DNA from: Actinomycetes bacterium
GTDB taxonomy: Bacteria; Actinomycetota; Acidimicrobiia; Acidimicrobiales; Ilumatobacteraceae
DNA: 64,000 nucleotides
NCBI GenBank assembly: GCA_027491335.1
Contig: JAIXWJ010000065.1
Span: forward strand, 1-64,000
Direction of reading: 5' to 3'
The notes beneath the pieces were generated by a model. That model had not been told where the DNA came from. It did not search any database and worked only from the letters and a program-made list of their open reading frames with translations. The position numbers were made by a program, and so were the translations under genes. This document shows, in pieces, positions 34,784 to 53,544 of this stretch. The stretch's first letter is position 1; each line of letters starts with the position of its first letter.

Positions 34784-35209
34784 ATGTCGCAAGTGCCGGT
34801 GACCGAAGGGGTCTTCACGTGGCCGTCCGACAGTCCGCAGTTGATCGGTAGTCGTTGCGTGGCCTGTGGCAATCACATGTTCCCGGTCCAACAGGGATGT
34901 CCGAAGTGCACGGCCGCCGAAACGGAAGAGGTTCTTCTCGGTCGTCGGGGAACGTTGTGGACGTGGACCGTCCAAGGTTTCCCGCCCAAGGCGCCTCCAT
35001 ACGCCGGCAACGTGGATCCCAAGACGTTCGAGGCTTTCGGCGTGGGTTACGTGGAACTGCCGGGTCAATTGAAGGTCGAGTCGCGTCTCACCGAGGCCGA
35101 CCCCGAAAAGTTGAGAATCGGAATGGAGATGGAGCTCGTCATCGTGCCCCTCTCCAAGGATTCCGATGGAAATGAGATCGTCACCTTCGCGTTCGCGCCG
35201 GTGGCCTGA
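34784..35209 (+). CDS. Zn-ribbon/OB-fold (DUF35) protein, thiolase-like partner
   Basis: 141 residues: a rubredoxin-like zinc ribbon with CVACGNHMF and GCPKC (two C-x2-C pairs) followed by an OB fold (RGTLWTWTVQGFPPKAPP, GYVELPGQLKVESRL). DUF35 proteins bind acyl-CoA and act as obligatory subunits of thiolase-fold enzymes; in steroid side-chain degradation a DUF35 domain pairs with an Ltp-type retro-aldolase. The thiolase-like gene follows 27 nt later, which fits. Confidence 0.88.
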   Translation: MSQVPVTEGVFTWPSDSPQLIGSRCVACGNHMFPVQQGCPKCTAAETEEVLLGRRGTLWTWTVQGFPPKAPPYAGNVDPKTFEAFGVGYVELPGQLKVESRLTEADPEKLRIGMEMELVIVPLSKDSDGNEIVTFAFAPVA

Positions 35210-45338: not shown

Positions 45339-47576
45339 ATGGGGGATGAGTCGGTGCTCCAAGGATTCTTGAAGGTCACACGCCGGAAGCCGGCTCTCAC
45401 GGGGCTGGTGGTCGTTCTTCTGGTGTTCGCGATCCTGTACGCGTGGGACGCTCGCCAACTGGCGCCGATGTTCTCGAACGTGGGAACCGGTGCGCTGATG
45501 GCCGCCATTGCCCTCGGTGTGGTGTTGACCTATCGCGGTTCCGGCGTGGTGAACTTCGCCAACGGAGTCGTGACCATTTTCGTCGCGTACTGGTATTACG
45601 GCCTGCGAATGGAAGGCAAGTTCTACGTTCCGCCGTTGCCGAATCCGCTCGTGCTGATCGAGATCCCGGTCAACTGGTTCCGCGATGACGGAAACAAACT
45701 GGATCTGATCAATTGGCCGACCGTCATCGACCTTCCGGGTGATCGCCTCACCACCGCGTCGGCTCTGATCGTGTCGCTGCTGCTGGCCGTGCTGCTGGGC
45801 TTGGCTCTTCATTTCTTGATCTTCCGTCCGTTGCGCAACGCGCCGGTGCTGGCCAAGGTCGTCACGTCGGTCGGCCTGTTCGTGGTGCTGCAGGAGTTCC
45901 TGCGTCTTCGCTTCGGTGAACTCGCGCGCACCGGAGTGCAGTTCCCGCTACCCAAGGGCAAAGTTTCGTTGCCCGGCGAGTTGGGCGCCATCCCCAACAA
46001 TCAACTGTTTTTGGTGGCGGTGGTCGTGGCCATCGCCATCGCTCTATGGGCTCTGTTTCGATTCACCCGTTTTGGTTTGGCCACGCGAGCCGCGGCCGAG
46101 AACGAGAAGGGGGCGATGCTTCTGGGCTTCTCGCCGGACTTCTTGGCCGGAGCCAACTGGGTGTTGTCGACGGTGATCGCCGGTCTGGTGGGCATCTTGG
46201 CCTCGCCGATCACGAACCTCGACACCATCACCCTTCCGCTTCTCATCGTGCCCGCACTTGGCGCGGCTCTGCTGGCCAGTTTCTCCTCGTTCGGAGTGAC
46301 CGTGGCCGCCGGCATCGGTATCGCGATGTTGCAAGGCTGGGTGCAGTACCAAGGCGCACAGACGTGGTTCCCGCGTGGAGTATTGCCCACGGCCGGCCTC
46401 ACTCAGGCTCTGCCCTTCTTCGTGATCGTGATCGCCATGTTCGCCCGCGGCAAGGCGCTTCCGGTTCGAGGTGCGGTGTCGTCGGGCAAGTTGCCCTCTG
46501 CCACGGCTCCGAAGCACGTTTGGCCGTTGACGTCGCTCGCAATCGTCGGAACCCTGGTCATGTTGTTCGGATTCAGCTATGACTGGCGTCAATCCACCAT
46601 CAACACACTTGTCGGTGTGGTCGTCGCGCTCTCGTTGGTGGTGCTCACCGGTTTCGTCGGACAGATCTCGCTGGCGCAAATGGCCTTGGCCGGAACCGCG
46701 GGCTTCTTCATGTCGAAGTACTTCGCCGACCTTCCGTTCCCGTTGGCACCGCTCATCGGTTCGGTGGTGGCGGCCCTGTTCGGTGCGGCCATTTCGATCC
46801 CGGCTCTGCGACTCCGCGGCGTAAACCTGGCGGTCATCACTCTGGCCGCGGCGGTGGCGATCGAGCAGCTGGTCTTCAAGAACAAGACCTTCGCTGGCGA
46901 ACTGGGAGCTCTACGAGTTGATCCGCCCATGATCGGTGGAAAAGATTTCGGACCAAACAACACCGCGTTGAGGGTTCTCGGACTGAAGGGGCGCGACGAC
47001 GTGCCGCCGAACGTGTGGTTCGGTGTCATCTGTTTGATCTTCGTCGTGGTGCTGTGTCTGATGGTCGTGAACGTGCGTCGTTCGGCCACGGGTCGTCAGT
47101 TCCTCGCCGTTCGATCCAACGAACGAGCGGCGGCGGCGTCGGGAATCGACGTGGCCCGAACCAAGATTCTCGCGTTCGGTCTGGCGGCGTTCATCGCTGG
47201 CATGGGAGGCGCGCTGTCCGGCTATCGGTTCGGTTCCGTCACCCCGGCCTACTTCGGGGCGTTCGCGTCGTTGACGTTCCTGGCCTTCGCGTATCTCGGT
47301 GGTATCGCCAGCGTGTCGGGAGCCGTTTTGGCGGGAATCGTCGTTCCCAACGGACTCAACTTCAATTTCCTCGAGAACATCCTGCACATCGATCAGGGTT
47401 ACGCCACCCTCATCGGAGGCATCGGACTCATCATCACCGCGGTGCGCAATCCGGAGGGTCTGGCCGGTGCGCCACGCTTGCTGGCCGAGCAACGAGCGTT
47501 GAGACGCGCGAGGAAAGCCGCACTATCGAAAGAGAAGCAAGACGAGGAAGCACGAACCATGGGGGTGGGGCAGTGA
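45339..47576 (+). CDS. Fused Liv-type ABC permease (LivH-LivM in one polypeptide)
   Basis: 745 residues with two successive permease modules. The first half (about 1-365) has LivH features: GTGALMAAIALGVVLTYRGSG...NFANG and LLGFSPDFLAGANWVLS. The second half (about 400-720) has LivM features: GQISLAQMALAGTAGFFMS, AISIPALRLRGVNLAVITLA and RAAAASGIDVARTKILAFG. They are usually two genes of about 290-340 residues each. Together they form the membrane channel with the LivG/LivF ATPases. Its stop overlaps the next GTG (GTGA). Confidence 0.92.
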   Translation: MGDESVLQGFLKVTRRKPALTGLVVVLLVFAILYAWDARQLAPMFSNVGTGALMAAIALGVVLTYRGSGVVNFANGVVTIFVAYWYYGLRMEGKFYVPPLPNPLVLIEIPVNWFRDDGNKLDLINWPTVIDLPGDRLTTASALIVSLLLAVLLGLALHFLIFRPLRNAPVLAKVVTSVGLFVVLQEFLRLRFGELARTGVQFPLPKGKVSLPGELGAIPNNQLFLVAVVVAIAIALWALFRFTRFGLATRAAAENEKGAMLLGFSPDFLAGANWVLSTVIAGLVGILASPITNLDTITLPLLIVPALGAALLASFSSFGVTVAAGIGIAMLQGWVQYQGAQTWFPRGVLPTAGLTQALPFFVIVIAMFARGKALPVRGAVSSGKLPSATAPKHVWPLTSLAIVGTLVMLFGFSYDWRQSTINTLVGVVVALSLVVLTGFVGQISLAQMALAGTAGFFMSKYFADLPFPLAPLIGSVVAALFGAAISIPALRLRGVNLAVITLAAAVAIEQLVFKNKTFAGELGALRVDPPMIGGKDFGPNNTALRVLGLKGRDDVPPNVWFGVICLIFVVVLCLMVVNVRRSATGRQFLAVRSNERAAAASGIDVARTKILAFGLAAFIAGMGGALSGYRFGSVTPAYFGAFASLTFLAFAYLGGIASVSGAVLAGIVVPNGLNFNFLENILHIDQGYATLIGGIGLIITAVRNPEGLAGAPRLLAEQRALRRARKAALSKEKQDEEARTMGVGQ

Positions 47577-49071: not shown

Positions 49072-49443
49072 TCAGGCGGTGGGGAGCTGCTTGAAATACG
49101 TCTGGGCATCGAAGTAGTCGCGCCACAAGGTGATCTTGCCGTCGACGACTTCCCACACGCCGTTGACCGGCAATTCCAGCCAGCCCCATGACATCTTGAA
49201 CCGGTCGGTGCGCTCGTTGAACACGATGTTGCCGTTCTGGGCCTCGCGGTGGACGATCCAACGCACCTCCGTGCAGTCGCCGAACATGGGGGTGAGAACA
49301 CCCTTGATGCCATCGGGCCCGTACATCTTCATGAGCGGGACGTTGTCGTACTCGCAGTCGCTGCTGACCATGGCGCAGGCGGCGTCGAGATCCAGTCGCT
49401 CGATCGCGGCGATGAAGGCGTTGACGGTTTCCAGCGGTGTCAT
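49072..49443 (-). CDS. Limonene-1,2-epoxide hydrolase-like (NTF2-fold) protein
   Basis: 123 residues. MTPLETVNAFIAAIERLDLD is the usual N-terminal helix. NERTDRF provides the Arg-x-Asp of the Asp-Arg-Asp catalytic set, LPVNGVWEVVDGKI the core strand pair and WRDYFD the second aspartate, all characteristic of the LEH family that opens epoxides. Start ATG 49443 overlaps the preceding AhpD-like gene stop by 4 nt, so they are co-translated. An epoxide made by a nearby P450 would be a logical substrate; that is inference. Confidence 0.88.
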   Translation of the reverse strand: MTPLETVNAFIAAIERLDLDAACAMVSSDCEYDNVPLMKMYGPDGIKGVLTPMFGDCTEVRWIVHREAQNGNIVFNERTDRFKMSWGWLELPVNGVWEVVDGKITLWRDYFDAQTYFKQLPTA

Positions 49444-49973
49444 GCGGGTTCTTCTCCTGTGGTGGATTCTTGCTTGGCGGGCGGCTCCTGGCTCCAGAGC
49501 ACGTCGAAGTCCTTGGCGATGTCGAGCACCTGAAAGGCGCGACCCATTCCGACGCAGAATCCGATCGTCACGGTCAGTTCCAACAGTTCGGGGTCGGAGA
49601 AGTGGGCGCGCAGACGCTCCCAGAGCTCGTCGTCGACGGCCGTGTGATCGATCGCGAATCGTTCGGCGTATTCGGCGGCCAGTCGTTCGCGATCGGTGAA
49701 GTCCGGGTGATCGTGATAGTGCTGAACCGAGTTGTACGCCTCGTCATCGAGTCCTTGCCGCATCGCCGATGCGGCTCGAGTGTTCATTCAAACGACGCAT
49801 TGGTTGAGTTGGGCGATTCGCATGCGGGCGACCTCGCGCTCGCGAATGGCGAGACTCGACTTCGCGTACACCGCTTCGCTCATCGCCGCGACTCCGGCAC
49901 CCATGTGCGGAGCCAGCATCCACACGCGATGAGCTTCGAGACCGTTGCCTTCGGGGACGTCGAGCCGGGCCAT
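49440..49973 (-). CDS. AhpD/carboxymuconolactone-decarboxylase-like protein with in-frame TGA, candidate selenoprotein (CxxU)
   Basis: One frame of 178 codons from ATG 49973 (GGAGG 6 nt upstream) to the stop at 49440, with a single internal TGA at 49788-49790 (codon 62). The part before it is 61 residues and the part after it 115, and both belong to the same family: REREVARMRIAQLNQCVV joins directly to MNTRAASAMRQGLDDEAY. In AhpD-like proteins this is the E-x11-C-x2-C motif; here Glu47 and Cys59 are present and the TGA sits at the second Cys. This fits selenocysteine, giving Cys59-Val-Val-Sec62, and a hairpin follows at the right distance. Alternatives are a nonsense mutation or a one-base sequencing error from TGC or TGT. 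The downstream part is fully conserved, which argues for function. Co-transcribed with the Mo enzyme (13-nt gap) and the epoxide-hydrolase-like gene. Confidence 0.7.
49747..49779 (-). promoter_or_regulatory. Candidate bacterial SECIS hairpin inside the AhpD-like gene
   Basis: Read on the minus strand: an 8-bp perfect stem GCCGCATC/GATGCGGC (49768-49775 with 49757-49764) capped by GGC, and a 4-bp outer stem TCGA/TCGA with a 6-nt one-sided bulge. The apical loop starts 21 nt after the TGA. Known bacterial SECIS elements are hairpins just downstream of the UGA with a G early in the apical loop, about 16-37 nt away. Confidence 0.55.
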
Positions 49974-49986
49974 GTCGTTTCCTCCC

Positions 49987-52164
49987 TCAGCGATTGATTC
50001 GCTCGATGACTGAGACGCGCACCGGGATGGCGCTCTGCACCACCATACCGTTCACCGGGTCGTGACCTCGTTCGACGGACACCAGTCGGTTGGTGGGAGT
50101 TCCGATGTCGCGAACCTTCTCGTCCGTGAGCGACGAGCCGCCCCATGAATGGGCCATGGAAATCACGCCGCGACGAACGTCGTCGGCGGACTCGGCCACC
50201 GCTCGCAGTGACGAGCGCGGACTGGTGACCTCGATCAGATCGCCGTCGGCCAGGTCGAGATCTTCCATGTCGTCGGGGTTCATGTACGCCGGATTGGTCG
50301 TGCCCTTCGCCCCGAGCACCGAGAGTTCCGAGCCGAAAGAGTTCAACACGTGCTTCAGGCGGCGGCTGACGAGACGGTACGGAAAGGCGGCCGGATCCAC
50401 CCCCAACGCGGCGGCGGAGTTCTCCTCGGCGCGCACGCGCACCATCTCCTCGACGATGTCCGGTGGTGCGACCGTGAACCGTGCCGTGCACTCGGGGTCG
50501 GCCGGTTGAGCCACCAGCCGCTTGTCGGGATGAATCGTCATTCGGTTCCGACGAACTTCGTCCATCGACATACGAGAGCCCGCATAGGCCAGGTCGAGCA
50601 TCTCGTCGTCGGTGGGTCGAGCATCCATTGGCGCATCGCCGCCCGGGAGAGGCAACGTCGAGTTCAGTCGTCGTGCGAGCTCCCAGAAGACCTCCCACTC
50701 GTTCATCACGTCGCCGAGGCGGGGTGTGATGGCCTCGGTGTAGTTGGTGTACGGGGCGCTGAACCAGCGATCCATGAGGTGGGGGACGTCGGCTCGTTCC
50801 AGGGAGAGGGTGGGGGCGATCACGTAGTGGGCGAACTCGGCGGTGGCCGACATTCGGTGGTCGATGACGACCAACAGTTCCAAGTCCTTCATCGCCGCGA
50901 TGGTGAGTTCCTGATCCGGCCACGCCACCACGGGGTTGCCGCCGCTCACGATGAGCGCGCGCACTTGGCCATCTCCCGGAGTCAGGATCTCCTCGGAGAG
51001 AGCGGTGGTCAGCATCTCGCCACGAATCCCGCGCAGATTGCGCACACGCTGGTGGGCGCCGGTGGCCGGCGGTCGTGCGGCGTGCACCTGAGCGCGTTTG
51101 GGTGTCTCGGGATACAAGAAGTAACCGCTCTCCAGCGTGTCGCCCTCACGGTTCACGCGGCCACAAATGGTGTTGAGCACGATGGAGAGATGCTCGGTCA
51201 GGCTGGAATGCGGCGCCATGCTCGGTCCGGTGCCGGTGCCACTCGTTCCCTTGCGCACCGAGGCGAACATGCGCGCGGCGGCCACGATGTCGTCGGCGGG
51301 AACGTCGCACCGTTTCGCCACGTAGTCCAGATCGAACGTCGACACGGCTTGGGCGAGTTCGGCGAGATCGGCCACCCAGCGATCGCAGAACTCGTGGTCG
51401 AACAAACCCTCGTCGATGATCACCTTCAGGATTCCGGCCATCAACGTGGGATCCTCGCCCGGACGGGGCGCGAGATGAATGTCGGCGCGAGCGGCGAATT
51501 CGGTTCGTCGGGGGTCGATGACGATGAGCTTCATTCCACGACGTTGCGCGTCGCGAAGCGCGACGTACGGATTGGTTCCCTGCAGACCGCCGACGGGACC
51601 GAAGCTGGACACCAACGGGTTGTAACCGATGGCCAGCAAGACCTCGGCGTCGCTGAAGTTGTTGTAGCCCGCCTCCCAGATGCCGACACGGAAAGGTGCG
51701 GTGGCCTTGGCCGGCTGATCGATGGTGACCGAGGTGTAGAACGATGGCGACTTCAAGCCTTGATGGAAGGCGCGGGCCGCGGGGATGGCGAGCGAGTTCT
51801 GGTAGCCCCCGGTTCCGGTGTACGACGCGATCGCTCGCGGGCCGTGCGCCTCGAGGATGCGTCGTAGCTCGACGCCGATGGAATCCATGGCCTCATCGGA
51901 CGAGATCTCTTCGAACGTTCCATCGGAACGGCGACGCAGTGAGGTGCGCAACCGACCGGAGTGCGTCATCTGCTCGGGGATTTGGCGTCCCTTGATGCAG
52001 GTGTAGCCGGCGAACAAGGGATCCTCGGCCACGCCCCGAACGGCCACGGCGCGACCGTCCACCACGTCCACCTCGATGGGGCAACTGGCATGGCAGAAGC
52101 GGCAGAAAGAGTGGTGAGTGTGCACTTCGTCCGACTCGATCGGACGATCCTCGGCAATGGTCAT
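49987..52164 (-). CDS. Molybdopterin-dependent oxidoreductase, formate-dehydrogenase/DMSO-reductase superfamily
   Basis: 725 residues. The N-terminal 4Fe-4S site is C21-x2-C24-x3-C28 with Cys56 in GYTCIKG. DAEVLLAIGYNPLVSS, KLIVIDPRRTEFA, the GTGTGPSMAPH region and the C-terminal molybdopterin-guanine dinucleotide domain with TTNPAYMNPDDMEDL are typical. No twin-arginine signal or electron-transfer subunit is seen, so it is probably a cytoplasmic single-subunit enzyme. No Cys or Sec is evident at the usual molybdenum-ligand position. ATG 52164 was chosen; an extension to 52278 would cross the palindrome. Confidence 0.9.
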   Translation of the reverse strand: MTIAEDRPIESDEVHTHHSFCRFCHASCPIEVDVVDGRAVAVRGVAEDPLFAGYTCIKGRQIPEQMTHSGRLRTSLRRRSDGTFEEISSDEAMDSIGVELRRILEAHGPRAIASYTGTGGYQNSLAIPAARAFHQGLKSPSFYTSVTIDQPAKATAPFRVGIWEAGYNNFSDAEVLLAIGYNPLVSSFGPVGGLQGTNPYVALRDAQRRGMKLIVIDPRRTEFAARADIHLAPRPGEDPTLMAGILKVIIDEGLFDHEFCDRWVADLAELAQAVSTFDLDYVAKRCDVPADDIVAAARMFASVRKGTSGTGTGPSMAPHSSLTEHLSIVLNTICGRVNREGDTLESGYFLYPETPKRAQVHAARPPATGAHQRVRNLRGIRGEMLTTALSEEILTPGDGQVRALIVSGGNPVVAWPDQELTIAAMKDLELLVVIDHRMSATAEFAHYVIAPTLSLERADVPHLMDRWFSAPYTNYTEAITPRLGDVMNEWEVFWELARRLNSTLPLPGGDAPMDARPTDDEMLDLAYAGSRMSMDEVRRNRMTIHPDKRLVAQPADPECTARFTVAPPDIVEEMVRVRAEENSAAALGVDPAAFPYRLVSRRLKHVLNSFGSELSVLGAKGTTNPAYMNPDDMEDLDLADGDLIEVTSPRSSLRAVAESADDVRRGVISMAHSWGGSSLTDEKVRDIGTPTNRLVSVERGHDPVNGMVVQSAIPVRVSVIERINR

Positions 52165-52200
52165 GCGAGCCCCCTCGTGAGCCTCGTCCCCACGAGGCAA

Positions 52201-52230
52201 ACACAAACTAACCCACTGATTAGTTTGTGT
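52201..52230. promoter_or_regulatory. 30-bp palindromic operator between the Mo-enzyme operon and P450 gene
   Basis: Perfect 11-bp arms ACACAAACTAA/TTAGTTTGTGT around an 8-bp spacer. It lies in the 90-bp gap between divergent genes, 24 nt before the P450 start. It shares the AACTAA-N8-TTAGTT core with the site at 53583-53602. A dimeric TetR-type regulator would suit this geometry. Confidence 0.75.
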
Positions 52231-52254
52231 CGTACCGAAAACAGCGAGGGGCGC

Positions 52255-53544
52255 ATGTCTGCCGGAAACATCGACCAACTGATCAACCGCGAGCAGTCGG
52301 CCATCGCCTGCCCGTATCCGATCTTCGCGGACCTACGAGGGTCCGAGGGGATTCCGTTCAGTGCCGACCTCGGCGCATGGATCGTCTCCCGTTACGAGGA
52401 CGTGCGCGCCATTCTCCGTGACACCGAACGCTTCTCCAGTCTCAGCCCCACCGGCCCGGCCCAGTCCGGTGAGGTGCTGATGGCCGGAATTATGGAGTTG
52501 ATGAAGGATCCCGAGATGGCGTCCCTCATCGGATCGCGGACCATGACGCGTGGGCGGGTCGCGGTGCTCTTGAACGCCGATCCGCCGGATCATCGTCGGC
52601 AACGAAAGTTGGTGAATCCCGCGTTCCGTCCCGATCGCATCCGCGCCATGGAACCCGCGGTGGTGGAGGTCACGAGAAGGTTGTTGGACGACGTCGTCGA
52701 CGATCTTCGCACGGTCGGTGCCACCGACATCGTTGGACGTTTCGCGGTTGGTCTGCCCTTGACCATCATCGCCATGGCGTTGGGTGTGGCCGACGACGAT
52801 CTGGTCACGTTCAAGAGGTGGTCGGACGACATCGTGATGCCGGTGGGTAATCATTCGCCATCGGTGGAGCAGGTGCGTGGTTTCCTGCTCTCCACCAAGG
52901 AGTTCACCGAGTACTTCCTCGCGCAGATCGCCGCGCGCAAACGGAATCCCACGGGGGACCTGTTGTCGGACATCGCCAACGCCCGAATCGATGGTGAAGA
53001 ACTCACCGACGATGAGCAGCTGGGGATGTTGCAGCAATTCCTCGTGGCGGGCAACGAGACCACGACGAACCTGATCGCCAACATCGTTCATCGTCTGGCC
53101 GAGGAACCGGAGTTGCAGAAGCGAGTTCGTGCGAACCCGGAGCTGGTGGACGGTCTGGTGGAGGAGATGTTGCGAATGGAGGCGCCGGTGGGTGGTCTCT
53201 TCCGACGCGCCAAGGTCGACGTGGAGATCGCGGGAACGCCCGTGCCGGCCGGGGATCACCTGTGGCTGCTCTTCGCTTCGGCGAATCGCGACGAGTGCAA
53301 GTTCGAGTCGGCGGACACGGTGGATCCGTTGCGGGCCAACGCCAAGGATCACCTGGCGTTCGGCAACGGTGAACACTTCTGCCCCGGAGCCGGATTGGCG
53401 AGGGCCGAGGCTCGCATCGCCACCGAGATGCTGTTGGCGGCCGTGAGGAACATTCGTCTGGCGTCGGACAACGAGTTTCGTTACGGGGATTCGTTCGTGT
53501 TGCGCGGCTTGACCAGCCTGCGCATCGTCGGCGATCCGACATGA
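52255..53544 (+). CDS. Cytochrome P450
   Basis: 429 residues. I-helix oxygen-activation motif AGNETTT, K-helix EEMLRME, and the haem-thiolate loop FGNGEHFCPGAGLARAE are intact. It is a soluble bacterial monooxygenase needing ferredoxin and reductase, which are not nearby. The start was set at ATG 52255 after GAGGG; upstream frame runs through the operator. Divergent from the Mo-enzyme/AhpD-like/epoxide-hydrolase-like operon. Confidence 0.93.
   Translation: MSAGNIDQLINREQSAIACPYPIFADLRGSEGIPFSADLGAWIVSRYEDVRAILRDTERFSSLSPTGPAQSGEVLMAGIMELMKDPEMASLIGSRTMTRGRVAVLLNADPPDHRRQRKLVNPAFRPDRIRAMEPAVVEVTRRLLDDVVDDLRTVGATDIVGRFAVGLPLTIIAMALGVADDDLVTFKRWSDDIVMPVGNHSPSVEQVRGFLLSTKEFTEYFLAQIAARKRNPTGDLLSDIANARIDGEELTDDEQLGMLQQFLVAGNETTTNLIANIVHRLAEEPELQKRVRANPELVDGLVEEMLRMEAPVGGLFRRAKVDVEIAGTPVPAGDHLWLLFASANRDECKFESADTVDPLRANAKDHLAFGNGEHFCPGAGLARAEARIATEMLLAAVRNIRLASDNEFRYGDSFVLRGLTSLRIVGDPT

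Follow-up and report, generated by a model that had tools for sequence, protein, structure and literature searches.

A predicted CxxU selenoprotein of the AhpD/CMD fold in Acidimicrobiia, and the exchange of selenocysteine and cysteine among its relatives

Selenoproteins of the AhpD-like type with a CxxU motif have been reported from environmental surveys. The Sargasso Sea survey of 2005 (PMC1088965) and the GOS survey of 2008 (PMC2398784), in the parts of their text available to us, describe AhpD-like 1 members (COG2128) and AhpD-like 2 members, which have the CMD domain, PF02627. Several AhpD/CMD-type CxxU selenoproteins are also listed in the accessible portion of a 2026 review. In AhpD, the proton relay consists of Glu, Cys, His/Tyr, Cys, and His, and both cysteines and the last histidine are invariant in the family members compared in the accessible text of PMC3141380. 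The bSECIS model, as restated in the available text of PMC13188914, has an apical loop of 3-9 nt, an upper stem of 4-16 bp, a G in the first two loop positions, and a loop located 16-37 nt from the UGA. Among other actinobacteria, the use of selenocysteine (Sec) is recorded for Microlunatus, Nakamurella, and Arthrobacter in the accessible part of PMC5029168. Our literature search found no selenoprotein work on Acidimicrobiia or on Ilumatobacter, and the papers that pair selenocysteine with "acidimicrobi" name neither in the title or abstract.

Here, we analyzed a gene within a 64,000-nt stretch of contig JAIXWJ010000065.1, hereafter called the "window", from an actinobacterium of the family Ilumatobacteraceae, in the class Acidimicrobiia.

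Reading frame, relatives, and decoding machinery

The gene lies on the minus strand at 49440..49973. Read from 49973 to 49440, it forms an open frame of 177 residues followed by a terminal TGA (49440-49442), and the sole interruption is a TGA at codon 62 (49788..49790, minus strand). The initial annotation, which named no strand, had described two halves of one protein lying in one frame and separated by this TGA alone. The plus-strand reading of 49440-49973 is unrelated to the gene, while the minus-strand reading bears the description out. The Pfam CMD model PF02627 matches the read-through protein over residues 22-104, across TGA62, with 35.5 bits against a gathering cut-off of 23, which places the protein in the CMD superfamily. 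Searching the genome in six frames independently recovered the CMD match, with one TGA inside it. The sequence context is QLNQ-C59-V-V-TGA62-M-N-T-R, and the TGA replaces the second cysteine of a CxxC pair, as the initial annotation had also proposed.

We next read this column in the relatives. From 98 loci, short and identical rows were dropped to leave 78 distinct proteins, the window's included; codon 62 is TGA in 47 of them and TGC or TGT in the other 31. The homologue alignment therefore returns Cys or TGA at this position, and the combination of an in-frame UGA with Cys in the homologues is the pattern by which bacterial selenoproteins are tested. In each of the 47 TGA-bearing proteins, codon 62 accounts for the single in-frame TGA of the match. 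Three of the 78 rows carry a TAG, a TAA, or N bases: the TAG lies within the match of L055, the TAA just past the last matched residues of L035, and the N bases in L059. Counted by source, the relatives in assembled-genome contigs comprise 18 with TGA and one with TGC (n=19), and a set of 49 loci, own gene included, comprises 36 with TGA, 11 with TGC, and two with TGT.

The TGA copies come from eight families of the class. Matches were present in 40 of the 150 genomes sampled from the window's own family, its own genome included (E 1e-15 or better), and in 79 of 395 genomes of the class-wide sample (E 1e-25 or better). Beyond the class, a phylum sample of 396 genomes (E 1e-30) yielded 19 matches in 16 genomes, all of them free of internal stops. 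On the midpoint-rooted tree, in which some long branches are unsure, nine undirected Sec/Cys changes are needed, at least six of which are forced by well-supported branches.

These data bear directly on whether the TGA arose through faulty sequencing or assembly, or whether the gene is a pseudogene with a recent nonsense mutation. The window does sit in a draft assembly of 76 contigs (2.52 Mb, 94.6% complete), where an error could occur. However, many separate assemblies, which span several genera and families, have the identical TGA; conservation of the protein extends to either side of it, as the initial annotation had noted for the flanking family sequence, and no other TGA lies within any of the 78 matches. 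An error or a pseudogene is thus extremely improbable.

Several relatives deserve separate mention. L030 (CALPPJ020000168.1) is titled Bifidobacterium breve; it has the operon described below, shares about 80% protein identity with the window, and nests in the window's lineage in the tree, and the bin is probably mislabelled. In the tree, L035 and L038, whose records bear the name Candidatus Microthrix, fall together with the marine MedAcidi-G1 sequence L037, and their labels may be outdated or wrong. In the much more distant relatives L118 (G055; 34% identity) and L060 (G008; 39% identity), the aligned codon is again TGA, and the sequences downstream of it are different; that of L060 folds to a hairpin. 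The two may be separate selenoprotein paralogues.

Does the cell possess the means to decode UGA as Sec? The search of the genome that the initial annotation had suggested found all four components, selA, selB, selC, and selD. A tRNA-Sec scores 67 bits against a cut-off of 47 and is called tRNA-SeC with the anticodon TCA by ARAGORN, and the remaining 11 tRNA-Sec matches fall below the cut-off. The selB gene (289 bits) adjoins selA (395 bits) on contig C3, and selD scores 322 bits, all three above their cut-offs.

Across the class, selA exceeds its cut-off in 15 of 16 TGA genomes and in 24 of 52 Cys-only genomes (Fisher p 0.001, with phylogeny ignored). This comparison covers 68 of the 79 matching genomes, and Cys was inferred from the lack of an internal stop in those Cys-only genomes whose locus was not fetched. 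Within the window's own family, selA is present in 18 of 19 TGA genomes, in 20 of 21 Cys-only genomes, and in 111 of 150 genomes overall; its presence is therefore non-discriminating there, and Sec use seems common in the family. The TGA genomes in which selA stays under the cut-off are G103 (90% complete) and G323 (79% complete). An origin of the Cys copies through the loss of the Sec machinery is unsupported inside the family, since 20 of the 21 Cys-only genomes keep selA. The Cys copies closest to the window's copy belong to G022, G025, and G043, which are Cys-only genomes with selA.

The hairpin downstream of TGA62

A hairpin occupies 49757..49775 on the minus strand, with the arms GCCGCATC and GATGCGGC enclosing a GGC loop. 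The element GCCGCATC-GGC-GATGCGGC begins 12 nt past TGA62 and has an 8-bp stem and a 3-nt loop, which starts 20 nt after the UGA; this geometry agrees with the bSECIS model in the form restated in the available text of PMC13188914. The folding energy by itself is moderately unusual, with z values of -2.2, -2.3, and -2.7 for three pieces and -1.86 for a 50-nt piece.

In a close set of 25 related elements, one pair is U-A in 20 sequences and C-G in 5, both sides having changed together, one pair is broken in the five marine copies, and six pairs are invariant; two of the five covariation measures are no better than shuffling. The U-A/C-G switch couples the silent third base of Ala67 to residue 72, which is Gln or Arg. 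In the wide set of 32 distinct elements, seven of the eight pairs show changes on both sides, a result reached by 8 of 500 shuffles, and the covariation score and the pairing percentage are reached by none of the 500, although the shuffles ignore relatedness. The one failing measure of the five is the number of pair types, which is no better than shuffling (403/500). In this set, 87.5% of the cells pair, as compared to 19.5-56.3% when the partners are slid by one to three columns.

The hairpin is associated with the TGA and not with Cys. At this fixed position, at least six of the eight pairs form in 41 of the 45 distinct TGA sequences and in none of the 31 Cys sequences, which reach five at most, and the first loop base is G in 44 of the 45 TGA sequences. 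The four exceptions are L085, L101, and L105, which form 6-7 bp in another register with the loop AGTT, and L108, with five of the eight pairs. A looser test, in which the longest stem without interruption counts wherever it lies in range, provided that its loop bears a G, still separates TGA from Cys sequences (p 4e-8, with phylogeny ignored), with an overlap: 6-7 bp are possible in 7 of the 31 Cys sequences, and just 4 bp in 7 of the 45 TGA sequences. Codons 68-70, within the hairpin, are the only ones without synonymous variation among 72 conserved columns of 28 Sec genes, Met and Trp columns being left out. The Cys copies L050 and L051 serve as a natural control, since they encode the peptide RAASAM with different codons and have no stem. 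The Cys copies L050 (z +0.35) and L054/L034 (z +0.22) are no better folded than shuffles. The marine copies L035-L039 have a mismatch in the stem (L035, z -0.91).

A covariance model of the hairpin, whose training sequences include the window's, retrieved the selenoprotein gene from the window's genome with E 4.5e-12. It found nothing else convincing in the assembly, the next match having E 0.7 (150 of 2850 first-look candidates scored, for this SECIS type only). A GC3-based scan of the window for other TGA-interrupted genes gave six candidates, none convincing, and those at 35207 and 41294 (plus strand) look like gene boundaries; the scan is insensitive, as it missed the known TGA.

With the hairpin at hand, two further readings of the TGA can be weighed. 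First, the codon could be an ordinary sense codon in an organism with another genetic code, which would account for a frame that runs on through TGA62. However, the gene's own terminal TGA overlaps the ATG of the next gene, so that UGA carries both meanings within one gene; the relatives without TGA have Cys codons at this position without exception (31/31); the genome holds tRNA-Sec, selA, selB, and selD; and the hairpin accompanies TGA rather than Cys. Another genetic code thus deserves next to no credence. Second, translation could stop after codon 61 and restart at an ATG that adjoins the TGA; the outcome would be a pair of small proteins or a truncation with a regulatory role. The window does have this ATG, from which a 115-aa ORF begins. 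It is, however, shared by just 3 of the 45 distinct TGA sequences, most of which have CTG there. Moreover, the Cys relatives are single uninterrupted proteins, the hairpin has the geometry of a SECIS element, and a split would part C59 from its partner, making re-initiation very improbable. All three readings were examined and rejected.

The Sec reading put forward in the initial annotation is strongly supported by the sel machinery, the Sec/Cys pairing, and the covarying SECIS element at a fixed distance. On this sequence evidence, the gene very probably encodes a selenoprotein of the AhpD/CMD fold, with UGA62 read as Sec. The cell's own SelA, SelB, SelD, and tRNA-Sec would decode UGA62, directed by the hairpin just downstream, and this recoding would turn the CxxC of AhpD-fold proteins into a C59-x-x-U62 redox pair.

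Active site, gene neighbourhood, and possible function

The AlphaFold2 prediction from 24 sequences has a mean pLDDT of 80 and a pTM of 0.78. The best solved structures found by Foldseek are PA0269-type AhpD-like proteins (E 5.6e-6), and a sequence search also finds 2O4D (E 3.7e-15). The predicted all-helical fold resembles that of PA0269 (2O4D/2IJC), with TM-scores by target of 0.80-0.88 for the P. aeruginosa chains among the matches listed. Mycobacterial AhpD is found with a Foldseek E of 0.57 or worse and a probability of up to 0.98.

How far does the active site follow that of AhpD? The window protein shares the Glu and the CxxC spacing with PA0269 and M. tuberculosis AhpD: Glu47, which corresponds to the relay Glu and lies 12 residues before the first Cys, and Cys59 (codon 49797..49799, minus strand), the partner of Sec62, are both invariant in the 78 rows, and position 62 is Sec or Cys. 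The window protein differs from them in having Sec at the second Cys and Arg in place of the relay His. Arg66 (codon 49776..49778, minus strand), four residues after Sec62, is placed opposite the His by the alignment to 2O4D and is Arg in 78/78 rows; the rows were selected by similarity to the window protein, and this invariance is a feature of the branch rather than of CMD proteins at large. Residue 61, at the Tyr/His site of AhpD, is V, I, A, S, or N in 77 of the 78 rows. With Glu47, Cys59, and Sec62 kept and the His replaced by Arg66, the protein retains the AhpD fold and its redox pair, but not all of the AhpD active site. The term "AhpD-like enzyme" in the initial annotation therefore fits the fold, while AhpD-type peroxidase chemistry should not be assumed.

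It is accordingly unlikely that the protein is a selenoprotein and yet an ordinary AhpD, serving as an adaptor or peroxidase partner of AhpC. The fold and the position of the redox pair agree with the PA0269-type structures, and Glu47 is the counterpart of the relay Glu. In contrast, the His that is invariant in the AhpD-like structures covered by the available text of PMC3141380 is Arg throughout the 78 rows, the motif-internal Tyr/His is replaced in 77 of them, as described above, and no peroxiredoxin family was recognized among the 23 window ORFs scanned. Still less probable is a selenol-dependent reductive dehalogenase or electrophile reductase with a fold related to Bmp8. Foldseek does list the debrominase Bmp8 (E 8.7e-4), and the setting of oxidative catabolism would suit such an enzyme; nevertheless, Bmp8 ranks below the PA0269-type proteins at 14% identity, and no halogen chemistry was recognized among the window ORFs scanned.

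The setting is as follows. A molybdopterin oxidoreductase gene with an Fe4S4 domain (49987..52278, minus strand, start codon uncertain) ends 13 nt upstream of the selenoprotein gene and probably belongs to the same operon. Downstream, a gene for a limonene-1,2-epoxide hydrolase/SnoaL-like protein (49072..49443, minus strand) overlaps the selenoprotein stop with its ATG (ATGA). A divergent cytochrome P450 gene lies at 52234..53544 on the plus strand. Among 42 loci, many of which are near-duplicates, the molybdopterin gene is upstream in 31 (directly in 29, and about 1 kb away in L053 and L059), and the hydrolase-like gene is directly downstream in 24. For the marine copies L035-L039, no molybdopterin gene lies within reach, and the gene that follows codes for a P450. 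Among the 59 loci L060-L118, those outside the window's family have neither the molybdopterin nor the hydrolase-like gene within the short flanks; a P450 is nearby in 10 of the 59, TGA and Cys copies alike (L074, L081, L082, L085, L092, L094, L095, L098, L105, and L106).

Five of 10 adjacent ORFs scanned were matched, to a CoA-transferase, a DUF222 protein, an aldo/keto reductase, an EamA transporter, and a luciferase-like monooxygenase. The window neighbourhood further contains more P450s, a luciferase-like monooxygenase, short-chain dehydrogenases, AMP-binding enzymes, an enoyl-CoA hydratase, and a branched-chain-type ABC transporter, and looks like an oxidative catabolic island. At 45339-47576, a 745-aa branched-chain-type ABC permease gene with two PF02653 stretches appears to join two permease halves.

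In selenoproteins generally, Sec attacks, Cys resolves, and a thiol reductant recycles the enzyme. By analogy, Sec62 would attack as the selenolate, Cys59 would form the Se-S bond that resolves the oxidized selenium, and the enzyme would be regenerated by a thiol reductant of the cell. Our tentative guess, which we hold to be well short of probable, is a selenol-dependent reductase that clears a reactive by-product or substrate of the surrounding oxidative catabolism, or keeps a partner reduced. The substrate might be an organic hydroperoxide, a quinone, or another electrophile, and the catabolic partners might be the molybdopterin oxidoreductase, the epoxide-hydrolase-like protein, the P450s, and the luciferase-like monooxygenase. 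This guess is drawn from the oxidative-catabolic neighbourhood; the absence of the AhpD His and the variation of the neighbours between lineages count against it. More broadly, and with somewhat greater though less than even confidence, we propose a class-wide actinobacterial branch of AhpD-fold selenoenzymes with the signature E47...C59-x-x-U62-x3-R66, in which Sec and Cys were exchanged at least six times. With Arg in place of the proton-relay His, its members, found in bacteria that are mostly uncultured, would run a non-AhpD reaction, coupled to molybdopterin- and P450-dependent oxidation.

Comparison with described families

The best NCBIfam match of the window protein is NF053654, "YciW-related (seleno)protein", which crosses the Sec position and matches all 24 aligned members. 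The window protein scores 72.9 bits, with the best E-value of the 24, against a cut-off of 310, and eight more distant members reach at most 62.4 bits; the protein is thus related to the curated family and lies outside it. For TIGR01926, the peroxidase-related enzyme family, it scores 40.4 bits against a cut-off of 81.8; the best E-value of the other 23 members is 3.6e-12, and the eight more distant members score at most 49.7 bits. By the scores shown, all 32 members scanned stay below the NCBIfam cut-offs. A second CMD-family gene in the same genome (L001; G000:C12:4135-4368) has no internal stop and scores 80.8 bits with PF02627, above the selenoprotein's score.

The branch adds a well-supported selenoprotein lineage to the class Acidimicrobiia, in a gene that ordinary gene finding would leave split. 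Its repeated Sec/Cys exchanges form a natural series, some members of which are found in genomes that keep the Sec machinery, and the Cys-only genomes retaining selA (20/21 in the window's family) make the keeping or dropping of Sec testable within one enzyme.

The initial annotation had called the protein a candidate new selenoprotein. This holds at the level of the subfamily and lineage and fails for the kind, as CxxU AhpD-like/CMD selenoproteins were already described in 2005 and 2008, in the parts of those surveys available. The Sargasso/GOS proteins, as described there, and the window protein are alike in being of the CMD/AhpD type, with CxxU, a SECIS element directly downstream, and Cys homologues. 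They differ in that the word actinobacteria is absent from both main texts (PMC1088965 and PMC2398784), and the accessible portions mention neither such an operon nor an Arg in place of the His, both of which the window has. What appears to be new is the spread in Acidimicrobiia with repeated Sec/Cys exchange, the invariant Arg at the AhpD catalytic His position in a branch that no NCBIfam model captures, and the conserved operon with the molybdopterin oxidoreductase and the limonene-epoxide-hydrolase-like gene. The window protein thus represents a widespread and apparently uncurated branch of a known kind of selenoprotein.
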